Source: Balneolaceae bacterium
GTDB lineage: Bacteria > Bacteroidota > Rhodothermia > Balneolales > Balneolaceae
Direction: 5' to 3'
Assembly: GCA_007693395.1 (NCBI GenBank)
Contig: REDS01000129.1
Coordinates: 1-51,049 of the forward strand
Length of the DNA: 51,049 bases
Each line of letters opens with the position of its first letter. The first letter of the stretch is position 1. The position numbers and the translations under genes are program-made. Shown in pieces: positions 7,452 to 51,049 of the stretch. The notes under the pieces are model-generated. The model saw only the letters and a program-made list of their open reading frames with translations. It did no database searches and was not told where the DNA came from.

Positions 7452-10004
7452 TCAGTCGGTTTGCAGTCTCAATATTTCGAGTGGTGAGTGCTTGAAAATA
7501 TGCCTGCTCCCGCTCCAGCCAATAAGAATTGCAAGCAGCATAATAAAAAGTGTGATGGCTGTTAGCGTGAGAAAGTCTGGCACGAAGGCAAGATCGAAAT
7601 AGAAGTAAGCAAGTCCCCAGCTTGCAGCTATCGCAAGTAACAAGCCCGTAAGGCTGGACAGCAGCCCAAGTAATGCATACTCAATGGTTTGAATGGAACC
7701 CACCTGTCTGTTATTTGCACCAAGTGTACGCAACAATACAGATTCCTTTGTACGCTGTCGGCGGCTGATTGCTATTGAACTGGCCAGAACAATGAAGCCG
7801 GTAAATATGCTGAAGAGCGCCATAAATTGTACAGCCATAGAAACCTTATCGAGAAACTCCCGAACGCTTGCCAGCGCTACGGAGATATCTATTACTGATA
7901 CATTTGGCAGTTCATTTACAACGGCGCTTTGCAGCCTTACAGATTGTGCATCGTTGGTAATTTTTACAGTAGATGCAAAAAACTGTGGTGCTTGTTCAAG
8001 CACACCTGCAGGGAATACCACAAAAAAGTTTGGTTCGGGCCGCTGGAAATCTACTTCACGCACACTTGCTATAGTTGTTGTAATCGGTACGCCCTGTACG
8101 TTAAATCCGAGCGTGTCTCCAATCTGAAGCTGGAGCTCATCCTCAATTTGAGTCGAGATAGATATCGGTATTACAGAACTCAGACCTTCTGCCTGGCCAA
8201 TCCATTCACCTCTGAGTATGGTTTCAGCTTCATTAAGCTCCTCCCGATAGGTAACCCTGTACTCCCGCGATAGCACCCAGTTGCTAATGGCTACAGTTGT
8301 ATCCTGCCGTATCTCCTGTACAGATTGCCCTTTCCGGGAAGAGAGACGCATAGAAACAATTGGTACATTTTGAATCACTGTGGCACCCTCTTCGGTAATT
8401 AATTCATTCAGCCTGTCATTTTGATCCATCTGAATATCATAGAAAACCAGGTCAGGTGTATCATCACCGGTTTCCAGGTTTATGCGCTGAAGAAGCATAT
8501 CCTGCGATAGGTAAAGGGTTCCAATCAAAAGCATACCCATTCCAAGGGTTGTAATCAGCATGTTTGTCTGATTGTTGGGCCTGAAGAGGTTGGCCATGCC
8601 TTGCCGAACAGTGTAAGAAAATGATTTGAGCCGTAGTGATTTTACTGTCGCTATGAGAAATGCAGCCACGCCCCAAAGAAGTAACACAAAAAGAAACAGG
8701 CTAAGCGTAAAAACCAGTGAAGCGATATAACTATCGGTTAAAAGGCCAACAATAAATATCAGTACAGCCAGTGATATGGAAAGTGTGATAAATTTCACTC
8801 TTTTTGGGAGAGAGCCTATCGGAGAAAAATCTGTACTTCGCAGTGTTAATAGTGGAGAAATGGCAGAGACTGAGGCGAGTGGCATCAGGGAAAAAATCAC
8901 ACTGATAAGTACGCCTGTAAATAGCCCGAGTGAAATGGCCTCAAAAGAGATGGCCTGAGTTATCTGAAAAGGGAGCAAATCAGCGAATAGTGTGGGGATA
9001 TAGAACTGCAAAATGATACCAATACCAGTGCCGGACAGTGCCCCCATAAAGCCAAGTAACGCAACCTGAATTGCAAATACGGCGAGTATCTTCTCCTTTG
9101 TCATACCAAGACACCGGAGTGTGGCAACGGTTGCTGTTTTTCGTTTGATATAAATATAAATCGCACTGCCTACCCCAAGCCCGCCAAGTAATAGAGCGAT
9201 GAAAGCGATCAATCCTAAAAATCGTGTGAGATTGTTTACGATTGCTTCAAATGTGGAGATACGGCTTTCAACTGTTTCCATCCGCACCTGATGCTCACGG
9301 GCCAGGGGGCGGAAAGCTTCGGTAAAGGCCGTAAGGCTTTCAGCGTCGTTAAACTGAAAATAGTGCTTGTATTCCACGCGGCTGCCCCTGTCCAGAAGGC
9401 CTGTGCCCTCAATGGCACGTTTTGGCAGATAAATTCTTGGCCCAACAAGAGAAAATGCTGCAGCTTCACCGGGAACACTTAAAAGTGCACCCTCCACCGC
9501 AAGGTTTCTGTTACCAACCCTGATGGTGTCGCCCACAGAGATATTGAACTGGCTCATTGCAGACTGTTCCACAAGCGCACTGTTATTTTGCTGATAGTTA
9601 AAAGCTGCTTCTGCTGGCTCTGTTGAAAGTTTTCCATATAGAGGGAATACTCCTTCTATAGCCCGAACCTGTGAAAGCCTTGTAGCACCAGCTTCATTAA
9701 AAAGCACCATAGAGTTGAACTCCCAGGCAGAGGCATCACTGCCACCTGTAGAATCGATAAAAGCAATAACATCATTATGAAACGGTTGTGTTGACCGTAA
9801 CTCCAGGTCGGCACCTAAAAGCTCGCGTGATTGGTCATCTACGGTAAGAAGTACATCGTTCCGAAAGGAGAGTATCGCCACCAACGCGGCCACACCGGCT
9901 ACTACAGACGATGTATATATGATAAGGCTCTTCCACTGTGATTTAGAATCCCTGTACGCAAGTTTCCAGCTGTAGGGTGATAAGAGTTCCCGAAAGAAAT
10001 TCAT
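7452..10004 (-). CDS. ABC transporter permease, YbbP-like (two FtsX domains)
   Basis: 850 residues with an N-terminal membrane helix (about 27-45), a large periplasmic domain, then FtsX/MacB-type helix groups. The first block is near 258-285 and the second after a further periplasmic region near 710-840, in the duplicated layout of YbbP/lipoprotein-exporter-like permeases. It starts where the ATPase gene stops (TGATG), so translation is probably coupled. Its partners in E. coli are YbbA and TesA, and the same trio occurs here. The substrate is unknown; export of lipids or of lipophilic or toxic compounds is the usual suggestion. Confidence 0.88.
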   Translation of the reverse strand: MNFFRELLSPYSWKLAYRDSKSQWKSLIIYTSSVVAGVAALVAILSFRNDVLLTVDDQSRELLGADLELRSTQPFHNDVIAFIDSTGGSDASAWEFNSMVLFNEAGATRLSQVRAIEGVFPLYGKLSTEPAEAAFNYQQNNSALVEQSAMSQFNISVGDTIRVGNRNLAVEGALLSVPGEAAAFSLVGPRIYLPKRAIEGTGLLDRGSRVEYKHYFQFNDAESLTAFTEAFRPLAREHQVRMETVESRISTFEAIVNNLTRFLGLIAFIALLLGGLGVGSAIYIYIKRKTATVATLRCLGMTKEKILAVFAIQVALLGFMGALSGTGIGIILQFYIPTLFADLLPFQITQAISFEAISLGLFTGVLISVIFSLMPLASVSAISPLLTLRSTDFSPIGSLPKRVKFITLSISLAVLIFIVGLLTDSYIASLVFTLSLFLFVLLLWGVAAFLIATVKSLRLKSFSYTVRQGMANLFRPNNQTNMLITTLGMGMLLIGTLYLSQDMLLQRINLETGDDTPDLVFYDIQMDQNDRLNELITEEGATVIQNVPIVSMRLSSRKGQSVQEIRQDTTVAISNWVLSREYRVTYREELNEAETILRGEWIGQAEGLSSVIPISISTQIEDELQLQIGDTLGFNVQGVPITTTIASVREVDFQRPEPNFFVVFPAGVLEQAPQFFASTVKITNDAQSVRLQSAVVNELPNVSVIDISVALASVREFLDKVSMAVQFMALFSIFTGFIVLASSIAISRRQRTKESVLLRTLGANNRQVGSIQTIEYALLGLLSSLTGLLLAIAASWGLAYFYFDLAFVPDFLTLTAITLFIMLLAILIGWSGSRHIFKHSPLEILRLQTD

Positions 10005-10735
10005 CAGACTGCATCCATTTGAACAGCTTCCGGTTCTGTTGTTGAGGTGTATGTATCCTTAAGAATATGTCCGTTTTTCAACTCAATAATTCTGTCGCAT
10101 TTGGAAGCAAGCTCGATATCATGAGTTACAATAATGAGCGTGGTTCCTTTCTCTTTATTCAGGTTAAAAAGGATCTCTTCCACTTGAGCCCCCGTCTCTC
10201 CATCAAGGTTCCCGGTTGGTTCGTCAGCGAACAAAATTTCAGGCTGATGGATGAATGCCCTTGCAATGCCTACTCGTTGCTGTTCACCACCCGATAATTG
10301 AGTAGGGTAGTGATCTGTACGGTCTTTAAGGCCAACACTTTCAAGTAACTCCAGAGCACTTTTTTCTACTTTATAATAAGGCACACCGCGTAGTTCTATT
10401 GGTACCATAACATTTTCAAGTGCTGTGAGTGTGGGAATAAGTTGAAAAGACTGGAACACAAATCCAATCTGCTCGTTTCTTATCTTTGACAAGTTAGCTT
10501 CGCTGTAATCAGAAATTTTTTGATTACTCAGAGAAACTGAACCGGATGTAGGTTTGTCAAGGCCGGCACAGAGGCCTAAAAGAGTAGTTTTACCACTGCC
10601 AGAGGGGCCAACTATAGCACAGGTTATTCCCTTTTCGATTGAAAACGAAACCCCGTGTAAAACCGTTAATGAGTGTCCGGCGGTTGCAAACGTTTTGGTT
10701 AGGTTTTTGATTTCTAAAATTGCACTCTGATTCAT
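10004..10735 (-). CDS. ABC transporter ATP-binding protein, YbbA/LolD-like
   Basis: 243 residues. Walker A is GPSGSGKTTLLG, the signature is LSGGEQQRVGIARA, Walker B is ILFADEP, and the switch His follows (IIVTHD), so the ATPase is intact. It has the length and pattern of the LolD/MacB/YbbA class that serves FtsX-like permeases, and the permease follows immediately. The promoter must lie in the 88-bp gap shared with the divergent TesA-like gene. Confidence 0.93.
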   Translation of the reverse strand: MNQSAILEIKNLTKTFATAGHSLTVLHGVSFSIEKGITCAIVGPSGSGKTTLLGLCAGLDKPTSGSVSLSNQKISDYSEANLSKIRNEQIGFVFQSFQLIPTLTALENVMVPIELRGVPYYKVEKSALELLESVGLKDRTDHYPTQLSGGEQQRVGIARAFIHQPEILFADEPTGNLDGETGAQVEEILFNLNKEKGTTLIIVTHDIELASKCDRIIELKNGHILKDTYTSTTEPEAVQMDAV

Positions 10736-45710: not shown

Positions 45711-45892
45711 TGGAGTAACGTTTTATGAATGGGGGTAATTGATCAATGTAATCAGTTTTGGCGATAAAGCGCATTATCATATCGGTGAAACTCTCAAAAC
45801 AGGAAAATTTTTTCAAAAAAAAATGTAACAAAAGGGACTTTCGTGGATCATTATAATAAACACCGCAAAACAGACAATTAAGTATTTTTGTA

Positions 45893-46501
45893 ATGAAAGT
45901 TAGTTTTATGAAAACTTGTGTTCTTTTCCCAAAAGCTTTCTCATATAATTACATAGAAGGTTCTTTAGCTCACGCTCTTGAAACTCCCTCTATGTATGAA
46001 GAACATCTCACACTCAGCGATTTTTCAGGCCCTAAACTGGTAAAAAATAGAATTACAACCCGCAGCATATCAATTACCAACAGGGATAAAGCAGAGGCTG
46101 TTACAGAAAAGAAAAAGCCTAAAATGCTGCATGTAGAAGATAGTGCTCAAATCAGGCTGCTTGTTTCTATTTATCTGAAAAACGAATTTGATGTGGAAAG
46201 TGTGGAAAATGGTGAAGTTGCCCTAAAACAAACCAAATCCAAGCAGTACGATTTCATTTTAATGGATATAAACCTTGGCAGGGGAATTGACGGGTTTGAT
46301 GTAATAAAGAAGATCAGAAATCTGGAGAATTATAAATCCACCCCTATTATTGCCCTTACAACCAACGAATATCCAAATGTTAGAGAAGCGTGCCTTGAAT
46401 CTCGGGTTAATGCATACATACAAAAACCATTTAATAAAGAGTACCTGCTTGGAACAATTGAAGAGATTGACAGCAGGATGAAAAAAGGAAATAATGCCTA
46501 A
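45893..46501 (+). CDS. Receiver-only response regulator with long N-terminal extension
   Basis: 202 residues. The receiver domain spans about 76-197: acidic pair Glu82/Asp83, phospho-acceptor Asp125 (FILMDINLG), Thr156 and Lys178 (YIQKPF), all intact. The first 75 residues are unlike any output domain I know; a start at Met34 (45992) is possible. TATTTTTG at 45883-45890 matches the Bacteroidota -7 consensus but lies 2 nt before the ATG, which would favour a later start if used. No kinase is in the window. It overlaps the next gene by 8 nt, so the two probably act together. Confidence 0.85.
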   Translation: MKVSFMKTCVLFPKAFSYNYIEGSLAHALETPSMYEEHLTLSDFSGPKLVKNRITTRSISITNRDKAEAVTEKKKPKMLHVEDSAQIRLLVSIYLKNEFDVESVENGEVALKQTKSKQYDFILMDINLGRGIDGFDVIKKIRNLENYKSTPIIALTTNEYPNVREACLESRVNAYIQKPFNKEYLLGTIEEIDSRMKKGNNA

Positions 46502-47267
46502 CTTATACACCATGAACAGTAATTACGACATAAAGTTTACCATACATGAGTATCTGGACGGTAATCTAAATGAAGAACAAATTGATAAACTATGGGCAGA
46601 GCTTCTGAGCAGGCCCGAGGAACTCGAATACCTTGAAACACTTGCTTCTCTCAAATCAATGGGGCAGAAAGGTGCATTTACATCAACAGGTAAGCCAAAA
46701 GTTCATACCATTAGCAAAGAAAATGAACAAGTACATATCGGCATTCTTAGTATCTTAAAGCCCTATCTCGTTGCGGCATCTATCCTTATTGCCGGTATGC
46801 TTGTTCTTTATAATGCATTCCCGCCAAATGAATTTGGTACCAGTGTTACACCAATAACCTCAATTGAATATGATATTGTCAGATCAGCAGAAGTTACTTC
46901 ATCATTCGAGTCATATCTGCAGGGAGCTGTTAACTATGCAGCACTTGGGAATATTGATCTGGCAACGCAAAAGCTCAATGAAGCATCCAATCTTGAATTA
47001 AGCAGTGATCAGGAAGCTGAACTTGAAATAGTGAGAGGATCTATGCATTACAACCTTGGTGAATTTCAGGCAGCAGCAGAAATATTTTCTCAACTTTCTG
47101 ATAATGATCAGATAGATGTACTGAATTTAGAAAAAGCTCTTTGGTATCTTGCCAATTCTCAGCTACATCTCAATGAAATTGATGCAGCTAAAGAAAATAT
47201 AATAATGGTTATCGATTTGGATGGTGCTTACAGCAGAATTGCAACTAATATGCTGAGCAACTTTTAA
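46494..47267 (+). CDS. Single-pass anti-sigma-like membrane protein with periplasmic TPR region
   Basis: 257 residues from the ATG at 46494, preferred because AAGGAAATA precedes it; ATG 46512 lacks a ribosome site. The N-terminal cytoplasmic part (about 8-60: IHEYLDGNLNEEQIDKLWAELLSRPEE) has the anti-sigma-like N-domain pattern of Bacteroidota FecR-type or RseA-like proteins, but no zinc ligands. A membrane helix runs about 91-109. The C-terminal part (145-250) is helical, with TPR-like pairs (YAALGNIDLATQKLNEASNL). No sigma-factor gene is adjacent. It faces the CHAT gene tail to tail. Confidence 0.7.
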   Translation: MPNLYTMNSNYDIKFTIHEYLDGNLNEEQIDKLWAELLSRPEELEYLETLASLKSMGQKGAFTSTGKPKVHTISKENEQVHIGILSILKPYLVAASILIAGMLVLYNAFPPNEFGTSVTPITSIEYDIVRSAEVTSSFESYLQGAVNYAALGNIDLATQKLNEASNLELSSDQEAELEIVRGSMHYNLGEFQAAAEIFSQLSDNDQIDVLNLEKALWYLANSQLHLNEIDAAKENIIMVIDLDGAYSRIATNMLSNF

Positions 47268-47325
47268 GTGTATTGCAACCATTTTTGTAAACTAAAACTC
47301 CTTTCTTGCTCTATATTTTCTTAAT

Positions 47326-47358
47326 AGGTAATAGAGATTTCATTAACCTCTATTACCT
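47326..47358. terminator. 11-bp hairpin across the CHAT gene stop codon
   Basis: Arms AGGTAATAGAG (47326-47336) and CTCTATTACCT (47348-47358) are perfect, with an 11-nt loop containing the CHAT gene stop (47343-47345). There is no T run on either side, so it may block convergent polymerases or stabilise RNA 3' ends instead of being a canonical terminator. Confidence 0.5.
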
Positions 47359-50300
47359 GTAAGAATTATAAAACTGCTTCCAAAAATTATTACAAAGCCA
47401 AGAGAGAGAAAGAATATGCTTGCAAAGTAGTTCTTGCGCGGCAGGGGGGAGTGGATGTCTCCATAAATAACAAAAGAACCCCAAAGGTAAGGGTCGCTAT
47501 TTGTGTTATTCAGATACTTAAGCCTTGCCTGGCGAATAGATTCAGCCTTGTTTTCACCGCTGTTGAGCCATTCATAAAAGTTGATTGATATATCAGAGGC
47601 AGTTTGATCACGAACCGGCCATAAGTTCATAGCCAGGCTTCTCGCTCCGGCAAAAGAGAACGCTCTTGAAAAACCAAGAATGCCTGAGCCCTGCAAATAT
47701 CCGCCTGCTCCCGATTCACACGAGCTAAGAAAGATCAGGTCAGCATTCAGGTTCATATCAAACAGTTCGTAAGCGTGGATTATTCCGTCGTATGGTGAGT
47801 TTGGATCTTCATCAGAAAAGAGAAATAATGATGAAAACAGAGGGTTCTCATCATTCACCATGCTATGTGTTGCTAAATGCAATATTCTGCTGTTCCCGGC
47901 AATATTTCTGAAGTTTTGTTCTGTACTTTCACTCTCAAGAAAAATTCTTCTGTTATTGAATGAGTAAAGCTTTTCGTAACTGTTTTTAATTTCAGTAGAA
48001 CTAAACGGAAGATTTTGCAACCATGAATGCCCTGCATCCTCGAAGTTTTCTATTCCAAATCCAACCATATCGTAAGCAAAATCAGTTCTTTCTGTTTGTC
48101 GTTCATTAATCAACTCAGTTAAGGAGTTCAGGTAGCTTATGCTGTAATCTTCAATCAGGTATCTCGCAGTACCAAAGCTATGTGTAGTATTAGCACGGTT
48201 TACAGGTAAAATCTCGAGTGGCAGCCTGTAAAAATCACCGTCCGGAATCATATAAATGTGAGAAACAGTGGCAGGTATATTTCCATCAAAAAATGCAGTG
48301 TATATATCATGCAATTTGTGCAAGTCAGTGCTTCTGTAGCCAATGGTATTGATGCCGCTCCGCAGTAACTCCAGATAGTTATCATTGGCAGTATAAATAT
48401 TCATCTTGATATCCCTTCGGGTGATCACAAACTGGAAAATATCTTCATCAAAAACCGTAAAATAAAATATCATCTGATCAGGTTTCAGTTCTCTGCGGAG
48501 GCTTCGGAATAACTGATCATACTGGCGTTCATTGTAATTTGGGAAAGCTTTGCTTTGCAGCCGGTTACGCTCTGAGATTGCATTTAACAGTTCGTTACCA
48601 AGATACACTCTCTGTTCGCCTGTGGCAGTTTGATAGCGGCTTCTTAGTTGTTGTATTCTGGTACTCAGATTAAAATCCTGAATCAGTTCTTCTTCAGAAA
48701 GCACTTTCGATTTGAGGAGCGGATTGTTATAAAAACCGGCTCTGGAGATGTTTCTCAGTTCACCTATCACAGAAAGAGCTTTCTCATATTGGCCGGTTTC
48801 ATACATTAGCATAGTATGAAGTTTAAAAGCTTCTGAAAACTCTTCATCCATTCGCATATGGCCGGTTTGCATATCTGAAGATTCCCGGAGATGATCGAGG
48901 ATTTCGGTTATACTGCTTGTTGATAGAGCTACTGCATTATCGATATGTTTTTTTTGCTTAAGAAGTCTGGTTTTGACGTTTTGATATAAGATCTGAATAT
49001 TAAAAAATTGAGTAGCAAGGTCTTTATGATCTAACTTATACAGTAATCTTTCAGTCTCTTCATATCTACCTTGATGTATAAGCATATTAGAATATCTTAT
49101 AGCTGCTTGAGTATAACTCCTTGTGTCTTCTCTTGAAAACGTGAGTTGTAGAGCATTTTTAAAATAATATTCAGCGTTATACCAATCTTGTTTCAACAGA
49201 TAAGTTTCTCCAATTTCAAGATAACTCATGTAATGATGTTGATAGTTATTGGTTTCTGTTGATAATTGCAATGCACTATAATAGTGATATAACGCCTCTT
49301 CAAAATTTTGTTCAACAGTTTTTTTGTAAATACCAAGAGAAATAAGAATTGAAGCTATTTCTGTTGTCAGATCATTGTCACGAGCAATTTGCAAAGCTTG
49401 ATTAAGATAGTTAAAAGCAAGTTCTGTCTCATTTTGACGTCTGTAATAGATAAATAAATTTCTGAGAATTGATAACTGTTGGCTGTAGTTATTCTCTGAA
49501 GAAGCTATCTCAAAAGCATTAAGTTGAAATTCAACATACCTATCAAACTGACCGGCATTCAGATAGCTAATCGCTAAGTTATTAAATAGAGTTGCCTGAT
49601 AGCGAGAATCGAGAATTGAATAATCTTGGTTAAACACGTCTTCGAATACAGTTAATGAAGCATTAACATTTCCTACCCTGAATAGTAAAAGTGCATAATC
49701 CAATTTAATTGTTAATAGCTCTTGATCATTGCCTAATTCATTTGCGATTGGTTGAAGTATCTGTTGATTGATGGATAAAGCTTGAGAATAATATCCCAAA
49801 ACTCTTGAAGAGTAAGAGATTATATCAAATAAGTTTAAACTAAAGTATGAACTCGGAAAGGGATTTTCGTTCACCAATATTGAACCAAGCTCGTGGACTT
49901 TTTGGAAATTGTTTAGATTGTCGTATCCATGAATCAAAGCTTGTATTTTAAAGCTCTCTTCAATAGGAACATTTTGATGTGCAGATTCCAGTCTATCATA
50001 CCAGTGTTCTAGTAATTTTCTGGCCTCAGTCTCTAATTCTGATGGGATACTCGTAGTAGTGAATGTATATATATCATATAAAGAAAAGTCTCTAACTTTA
50101 TAATATGAACTATCAATTGTATTATTTATGTAACTTAAAAAGTGGTCAGGTAATTGTTGAACTAAATCATCATTATCGTAAATATAAGCGAATAGCTCAG
50201 CTCTTTGAATACTGTTCGCCTCATGATAAGCATAGGTTAAATATGCAATATTTTGAGTTGATTGATATAAATCGAAAAATTGTTCACTTTTTACGTCTAA

Positions 50301-50465
50301 CGCAGATTCGCCGGTTTCATATGCAATTTGGTTCGCTTTAATCGAAGCCATGAGCCAATTATTTAAAACATCAGCTTCACTATTTGAAATATTTTGTAAC
50401 TTAATTTCATCTGCATGAAGAGAAGTAAAAAGGCTTAATAATACTATTGTTAAGTATTTCTGCAC
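47343..50465 (-). CDS. Exported TPR-CHAT protease with C-terminal membrane anchor
   Basis: 1040 residues, starting with GTG at 50465; the next Met is past residue 30, beyond the signal peptide (KYLTIVLLSLFTSLHA). About 60-560 is helical with TPR repeats (e.g. EASSENNYSQQLSILRNLFI and YHYYSALQLSTETNNYQHHY). The CHAT caspase-like domain is about 700-1000. Its catalytic dyad is intact: His867 in HLATHS and Cys916 in LSSCESG, 49 residues apart. A hydrophobic helix at about 1013-1035 would anchor the end. Peptidases of this kind cut proteins in response to TPR-sensed signals; this one appears to be extracytoplasmic. The N-terminal half is markedly more AT-rich than the C-terminal half. Confidence 0.88.
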   Translation of the reverse strand: MQKYLTIVLLSLFTSLHADEIKLQNISNSEADVLNNWLMASIKANQIAYETGESALDVKSEQFFDLYQSTQNIAYLTYAYHEANSIQRAELFAYIYDNDDLVQQLPDHFLSYINNTIDSSYYKVRDFSLYDIYTFTTTSIPSELETEARKLLEHWYDRLESAHQNVPIEESFKIQALIHGYDNLNNFQKVHELGSILVNENPFPSSYFSLNLFDIISYSSRVLGYYSQALSINQQILQPIANELGNDQELLTIKLDYALLLFRVGNVNASLTVFEDVFNQDYSILDSRYQATLFNNLAISYLNAGQFDRYVEFQLNAFEIASSENNYSQQLSILRNLFIYYRRQNETELAFNYLNQALQIARDNDLTTEIASILISLGIYKKTVEQNFEEALYHYYSALQLSTETNNYQHHYMSYLEIGETYLLKQDWYNAEYYFKNALQLTFSREDTRSYTQAAIRYSNMLIHQGRYEETERLLYKLDHKDLATQFFNIQILYQNVKTRLLKQKKHIDNAVALSTSSITEILDHLRESSDMQTGHMRMDEEFSEAFKLHTMLMYETGQYEKALSVIGELRNISRAGFYNNPLLKSKVLSEEELIQDFNLSTRIQQLRSRYQTATGEQRVYLGNELLNAISERNRLQSKAFPNYNERQYDQLFRSLRRELKPDQMIFYFTVFDEDIFQFVITRRDIKMNIYTANDNYLELLRSGINTIGYRSTDLHKLHDIYTAFFDGNIPATVSHIYMIPDGDFYRLPLEILPVNRANTTHSFGTARYLIEDYSISYLNSLTELINERQTERTDFAYDMVGFGIENFEDAGHSWLQNLPFSSTEIKNSYEKLYSFNNRRIFLESESTEQNFRNIAGNSRILHLATHSMVNDENPLFSSLFLFSDEDPNSPYDGIIHAYELFDMNLNADLIFLSSCESGAGGYLQGSGILGFSRAFSFAGARSLAMNLWPVRDQTASDISINFYEWLNSGENKAESIRQARLKYLNNTNSDPYLWGSFVIYGDIHSPLPRKNYFASIFFLSLGFVIIFGSSFIILTGNRG

Positions 50466-50533
50466 AGAAATCTTATTGCTAACACTAGGGTGAAGTATTC
50501 AGTAATATAGTTATTTAAATAGTTGGGTATTTT

Positions 50534-50749
50534 TTAGTCTCTGTCTCTGTAACGATTACGAGGTCTCTCATCGATCATATCTTCCTGGTCACCGCCTCGG
50601 ATAAAATCTGGAGTTTCCATATTAAGAATTTGAGAATCGTTGGCATTGAATTGTGCATCAGCATCTTCAACGGTGGCATCAGTAAGGCCAGCGCAACCGG
50701 TTAACAGTGCAAAGAAAAGAGCTGTGAGAGTAAGTTTAAGTGTTTTCAT
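50534..50749 (-). CDS. Small lipoprotein (71 residues)
   Basis: 71 residues with a signal segment and lipobox at Cys19 (LLTGC). The mature part is short and acidic (DATVEDADAQFNANDSQ) and ends in an Arg/Asp tail (RPRNRYRDRD). No known domain. It lies 68 bp upstream of the CHAT gene in the same direction, so it may share its transcript. A secreted or membrane-attached partner or substrate of the CHAT protease is conceivable, but nothing in the sequence proves it. Confidence 0.7.
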   Translation of the reverse strand: MKTLKLTLTALFFALLTGCAGLTDATVEDADAQFNANDSQILNMETPDFIRGGDQEDMIDERPRNRYRDRD

Positions 50750-51049
50750 AATGAGTCGTATTGTTTATTAATTATTGATATTTATCAGTTTATTAAAAAT
50801 GAGTCTAAGTTTTGTGTAAACTATCCACCTATATGATCCACAAAGGTGCTAAATGTTACAAAATTAAGTGAAAATATAATCATGCAAATTAACATGTATG
50901 ATTGTAATTAGATTATCATATACAAACATAAGAAAATTTTAATATTTTCGCTTAACATTTTTTGCGCGTATGTTACTTGTTATATAATTTTAATCATAGC
51001 TGTCCAAAACGTTTTACAATTTACTGAAAAACTTCGATTCAATCTGTTT
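50750..51049. other. AT-rich 300-bp region upstream of the small lipoprotein
   Basis: No open frame of note, RNA gene or terminator was found. It contains an imperfect inverted repeat, AATCATGCA (50878-50886) and TGTATGATT (50895-50903), with one mismatch in nine, in an AT-rich setting. It may hold the promoter and an operator for the lipoprotein/CHAT transcript. The window ends inside this region, so any gene beyond is unseen. Confidence 0.45.

Follow-up and report, generated by a model that had tools for sequence, protein, structure and literature searches.

Could a TPR-CHAT protease that is exported to the periplasm be coupled to the control of transcription? The question arises from one end of contig C155 of a Balneolaceae bacterium, whose genome assembly comprises 227 contigs; the window analyzed here is this entire contig, 51,049 nt in length. 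The initial annotation had proposed such a coupling through an anti-sigma-like protein and named four genes, a receiver-only response regulator, the anti-sigma-like protein, the TPR-CHAT protease and a small lipoprotein. Gene calls and domain matches confirmed all four, each of them intact, and corrected the order, which had been given as a single row. The response regulator (RR; 45893..46501, + strand) and the anti-sigma factor (AS; 46494..47267, + strand, likely start 46512) form one unit, and the lipoprotein (LP; 71 aa, with the lipobox LTGC; 50534..50749, - strand) and the protease (CHAT; 47343..50465, - strand) form another. The two units are convergent, their 3' ends separated by 76 nt. 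The right end of the contig cuts the module 300 nt upstream of LP, before a fifth gene. PADLOC gave no defence-family match except one weak TPR match, and a scan of the genome contigs returned two loci only.

We compared the neighbourhood with that of module-family CHAT genes in related genomes. AS was located within 400 nt of 39 of the 53 CHATs with enough downstream DNA and was convergent with CHAT in all 39, and the AS loci numbered 45 in total. At the 30 loci with enough upstream DNA, a divergent sigma gene was present in 26 and LP in at least 19. The possibility raised at the outset, that most homologues might lack these neighbours, was thus not borne out, and the grouping of the module genes is far above chance; synteny among the relatives ruled out a fortuitous arrangement. 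The receiver did not prove to be a constant member, being found at 24 of the 45 AS loci and absent from 21, and RR is an accessory, optional component of the module. None of the AS, sigma and LP neighbours occurred at seven other CHATs that we examined, one of which is the second CHAT of the window's own genome. This second gene (G000:C194, L075, 7080-10169) encodes a TPR-CHAT protein with a signal peptide and no C-terminal helix. We also observed a locus (L062, G004:C14) with a CHAT gene broken by stops, where AS, RR, four LP genes and the sigma gene are still there, and two loci (L202, L203) where a CHAT without a signal peptide lies opposite a sigma gene that is itself followed by the gene for an exported protein of about 290 aa of a different kind.

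CHAT is a 1040-aa protein with a GTG start that matches PF12770 (1.2e-48) and TPR_12 (1.2e-13), and its His/Cys dyad and TPR repeats are those of the separase-like TPR-CHAT peptidases of clan CD. The dyad residues had been numbered correctly as His867 and Cys916 and, together with Asp953, are invariant in 37 of 37 CHAT sequences. The signal-peptide-like N-terminus and the hydrophobic C-terminal helix, also described earlier, are both seen and are general in the family. The AF2 model, built with four sequences, gave a pLDDT of about 25 for the CHAT domain; the fold search with this model returned TPR proteins only, among the matches listed, and the only PDB profile match of the CHAT domain was weak (8rot, E 0.14). 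Asp953 lies at Cys+37 within a separase-like NLWxVxD motif, and we take it to be the probable counterpart of the separase Asp for P1 Arg, at a proposed S1 position, by this motif and by the spacing in human separase, rather than by structure. The residue is kept in most CHATs and is not specific to the module. Separase cuts after ExxR, with an Asp for the P1 Arg, and Csx29 of Craspase has Lys670 at that position (PMC9729208), whereas the window CHAT keeps its Asp.

We further analyzed the association of membrane anchoring with the sigma and anti-sigma genes. Both genes were nearby for 17 of 26 envelope-anchored CHATs vs 1 of 14 without a C-terminal transmembrane segment (Fisher p 0.0006), in a set whose first 20 loci were selected for resembling the module CHAT and supplied part of the training data of the HMMs. 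A sample drawn by PF12770 alone contained both genes at four of five anchored CHATs, and AS genes that were found without using CHAT usually had a CHAT gene adjoining.

AS has putative cytoplasmic helices at about residues 3-49 and a transmembrane segment at about 82-102, followed by a periplasmic linker and a TPR domain. Outside Balneolales, its homologues lie directly downstream of the sigma gene and on the same strand in 12 of 12 sigma/AS/CHAT trios, and 10 of these 12 sigma-AS pairs overlap or are within 2 nt of each other. The AS profiles of Balneolales and of other Bacteroidota matched each other with a probability of 99.6% (E 1.4e-24, profile-profile comparison). The zf-HC2 family was matched weakly by 8 of 40 Balneolales members, the window AS itself matched no Pfam anti-sigma family, and His-x3-Cys-x2-Cys motifs occur at two loci (L135, L143). 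The AF2 model of AS had a mean pLDDT of 62, with the TPR part alone usable. Homology and topology identify AS as an anti-sigma factor that crosses the membrane once, having a predicted cytoplasmic sigma-binding domain and a periplasmic TPR domain as its putative sensor. The sigma gene is not adjacent to AS in Balneolales, so that the AS-sigma pairing in this order is one that we infer. A second sigma-then-AS pair of the same family, with the Arg-Ser described below kept, is located in the same genome (G000:C47, L238, at about 2.4-3.8 kb), and no CHAT gene was near it within the 12 kb inspected.

In the relatives, the gene beyond LP and divergent from it codes for a protein of about 190 aa. Many members match PF07638, Sigma70_ECF, r2 and r4 in profile searches, and the protein gave a near full-length profile match (2e-6) to the solved ECF factor SigE (2q1z), identifying the divergent gene, on sequence grounds, as one for an ECF sigma factor. 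In the window, only the remaining intergenic region (50861..51049) precedes the contig end, and the sigma gene would follow on contig C218 of the same genome. The ortholog there (9799-10356, minus strand) is 66% identical to the copy in the relative L055, its start lies some 100 nt short of the C218 end, and eight genes from that end inward are colinear with L055. No sequence overlap was found between the ends of C155 and C218, and the join is inferred from synteny. With this copy, an ECF sigma factor is encoded with the module in the window's own genome as well as at the 26 loci. The contig end contains TGTCCAAAACGTTTT (51001-51015), whose reverse complement we observed where the reverse-complemented C218 (L207) begins, and this inverted repeat between LP and sigma may have caused the assembly break.

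The two units of the window are preceded by the same ECF-type promoter motif, TGTAAC (-35) N15 GGATCAT (-10), located 69 nt before RR (45824..45851, + strand) and 111 nt before LP (50833..50860, - strand). TGTAAC was found within 300 nt upstream of the AS or RR head gene at 42 of 45 loci vs 32 of 396 other genes, and also precedes LP in many loci where such DNA is present, so a sigma-type promoter is common to the module genes. Within the clade of the window the -10 element resembles GSATCAT, and outside this clade TACTCTT; the sigma subtypes match the division, which is confounded with phylogeny. TGTAACA-N14-TACTCTT was enriched relative to the reversed pattern in four Balneolaceae genomes, where it marks LP, AS and receiver genes and the gene for a membrane protein that was assigned as M23-like by reading of its sequence rather than by a database match; in G030 and G048, the motif belongs to a receiver-only gene. 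The motif was found before unrelated genes too, and might serve a different ECF sigma factor. Elsewhere in the window's genome, on contigs C49 (L124) and C203 (L125), a TGTAAC...GCATCAT-like motif occurs at a distance of 116 nt before small genes whose products begin with MKNGDKQ; these genes are HTH-like by eye and have propeller-like lipoprotein genes nearby.

The most conserved residue of AS is Arg124, present in 53 of 54 aligned anti-sigmas and always followed by a small residue (Arg124-Ser125 in the window; 46881..46886, + strand). It lies in the periplasmic linker, about 20 aa outside the membrane. We counted Arg or Lys followed by a small residue in 33 of 40 further anti-sigmas (Arg 29, Lys 4), from loci chosen by AS homology, a few of them in first-set genomes, and read by eye from sequence segments. 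The other seven had no basic residue: three came from genomes without a CHAT match (G161, G240, G318), three stand beside a CHAT gene, and one is an AS without an adjacent sigma gene. It is this conserved Arg and the small residue after it that point to Arg124 as a putative site of cleavage by CHAT.

Taken together, we consider it probable that the module is a sigma/anti-sigma switch across the membrane with the exported TPR-CHAT peptidase as the site-1 protease of AS. The ECF sigma factor would be held at the inner membrane by the cytoplasmic N-terminal domain of AS, and CHAT, with a signal peptide for its export and a C-terminal helix as its tether, would share the periplasmic space with the TPR domain of AS. 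An envelope signal reaching the TPR parts would lead CHAT to cut AS after Arg124, upon which a general site-2 protease would complete the cleavage and free the sigma factor. The free sigma factor would then transcribe LP-CHAT and RR-AS from their promoters and, in relatives, a wider regulon including the envelope M23-like gene. The circuit would have feedback of both signs, because AS and CHAT would both belong to the regulon. The coupling of an exported TPR-CHAT protein to transcription, as first proposed, thus gains from the conserved gene set, the sigma factor that was found, the promoters and the Bacteroidota-wide trio, and loses the one-row layout and the constant receiver; neither the sigma factor nor the promoters figured in the initial annotation.

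We evaluated the possibility that the sigma regulon has CHAT among its outputs and not as its trigger. Another protease would free the sigma factor, which would induce CHAT and LP to cleave envelope proteins or remove them during stress. The LP-CHAT unit is itself under the shared promoter, and two genomes (G353, G293) keep the Arg in AS and yet have no CHAT match, as such an arrangement would allow. Against it, CHAT genes lie beside the anti-sigma gene repeatedly within the phylum, and the Arg on the outer side of the membrane is almost invariant; we regard this possibility as fairly unlikely. A further explanation places LP, instead of AS, as the substrate or ligand of CHAT, with tandem LPs supplying a cleavable or inhibitory peptide. 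LP has a variable linker and a conserved C-terminal motif, adjoins CHAT and occurs in one to five tandem copies in relatives, and TPR domains of similar structure to the one in AS, such as HOP TPR1, bind C-terminal peptides. However, outside Balneolales the sigma/AS/CHAT trio occurs and an LP-like gene was not noticed, and the LP tails have Arg-Pro, a poor cleavage site, making this explanation quite improbable. Tandem arrays of near-identical LP genes were observed at L046 (5127-6300), L062 (10636-11700) and L044.

The receiver offers another route, in which RR, standing in the place that the sigma gene has in other Bacteroidota, would control AS directly as a phospho-dependent partner, with CHAT secondary. 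Its position directly upstream of AS at the loci that have it, the promoter in common, and the motif-bearing receiver-only genes of G030 and G048 are consistent with such a role. Against it stand the 21 AS loci that have no RR, and the composition of RR itself, in which the REC domain (aa 79-189; PF00072, 5.8e-22) follows an N-terminal extension of about 70 aa with no Pfam family matched and no output domain was found. We consider this route very improbable.

We compared the module, read as a CHAT-driven sigma/anti-sigma switch, with described systems. In the Csx29/Csx30 system, a TPR-CHAT protease cuts a protein that inhibits an ECF sigma factor (PMC10028731), and this cutting is reported to lift the inhibition (PMC10028731, PMC9729208). 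Type III-E Craspase (Csx29-Csx30-CASP-sigma) resembles the module in that a TPR-CHAT protein, a sigma inhibitor and an ECF sigma factor are encoded together, and by analogy is its closest precedent in logic. Craspase differs in being cytoplasmic and gated by Cas7-11 and target RNA, and Csx30 lacks the single-pass TPR architecture of AS. Its TPR-CHAT component has neither signal peptide nor anchor; the window system is not a member of Craspase because its CHAT appears to be exported and membrane-anchored. No recurrent Cas7-11 or CRISPR neighbour was noticed in the neighbourhoods of the module loci. The arrangement also resembles DegS-RseA-RpoE, with a membrane anti-sigma factor that has a periplasmic part, an exported and anchored site-1 protease and an ECF sigma factor, but DegS is a PDZ serine protease whereas the candidate here belongs to the cysteine peptidases of clan CD and contains TPRs, and AS bears TPRs where RseA has its periplasmic domain. 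ECF54 factors are likewise encoded together with a CHAT protein, with proteolytic control proposed (PMC8999054), so that a link between sigma and CHAT genes is in itself already known; ECF54 is discussed as having no anti-sigma factor (PMC8999054), whereas the module has the TPR anti-sigma as a constant partner. HetF combines CHAT, TPRs and one transmembrane segment as well, but is a cyanobacterial divisome and development protein with another domain order, for which no sigma or anti-sigma partner is described there (PMC8406250). The apparent novelty lies in the exported CHAT and in its partner, a membrane TPR anti-sigma factor that has a conserved Arg. We found no description of the periplasmic module in the literature searched, which included few subscription papers and not the main paper on ECF classification.

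A broader proposal, which we put forward tentatively and consider unlikely, is that anchored CHATs are widespread site-1 proteases for the anti-sigmas of Bacteroidota, cutting after a membrane-near Arg, and that the Craspase trio was derived from such a circuit and moved to the cytoplasm under RNA control. The protease class is not described in the role of activating a sigma factor through its anti-sigma in the literature searched. Through the module itself, many Bacteroidota anti-sigmas would gain a candidate activating protease with a precise predicted cut site, and the sigma pathway of Craspase would gain a plausible non-CRISPR relative.
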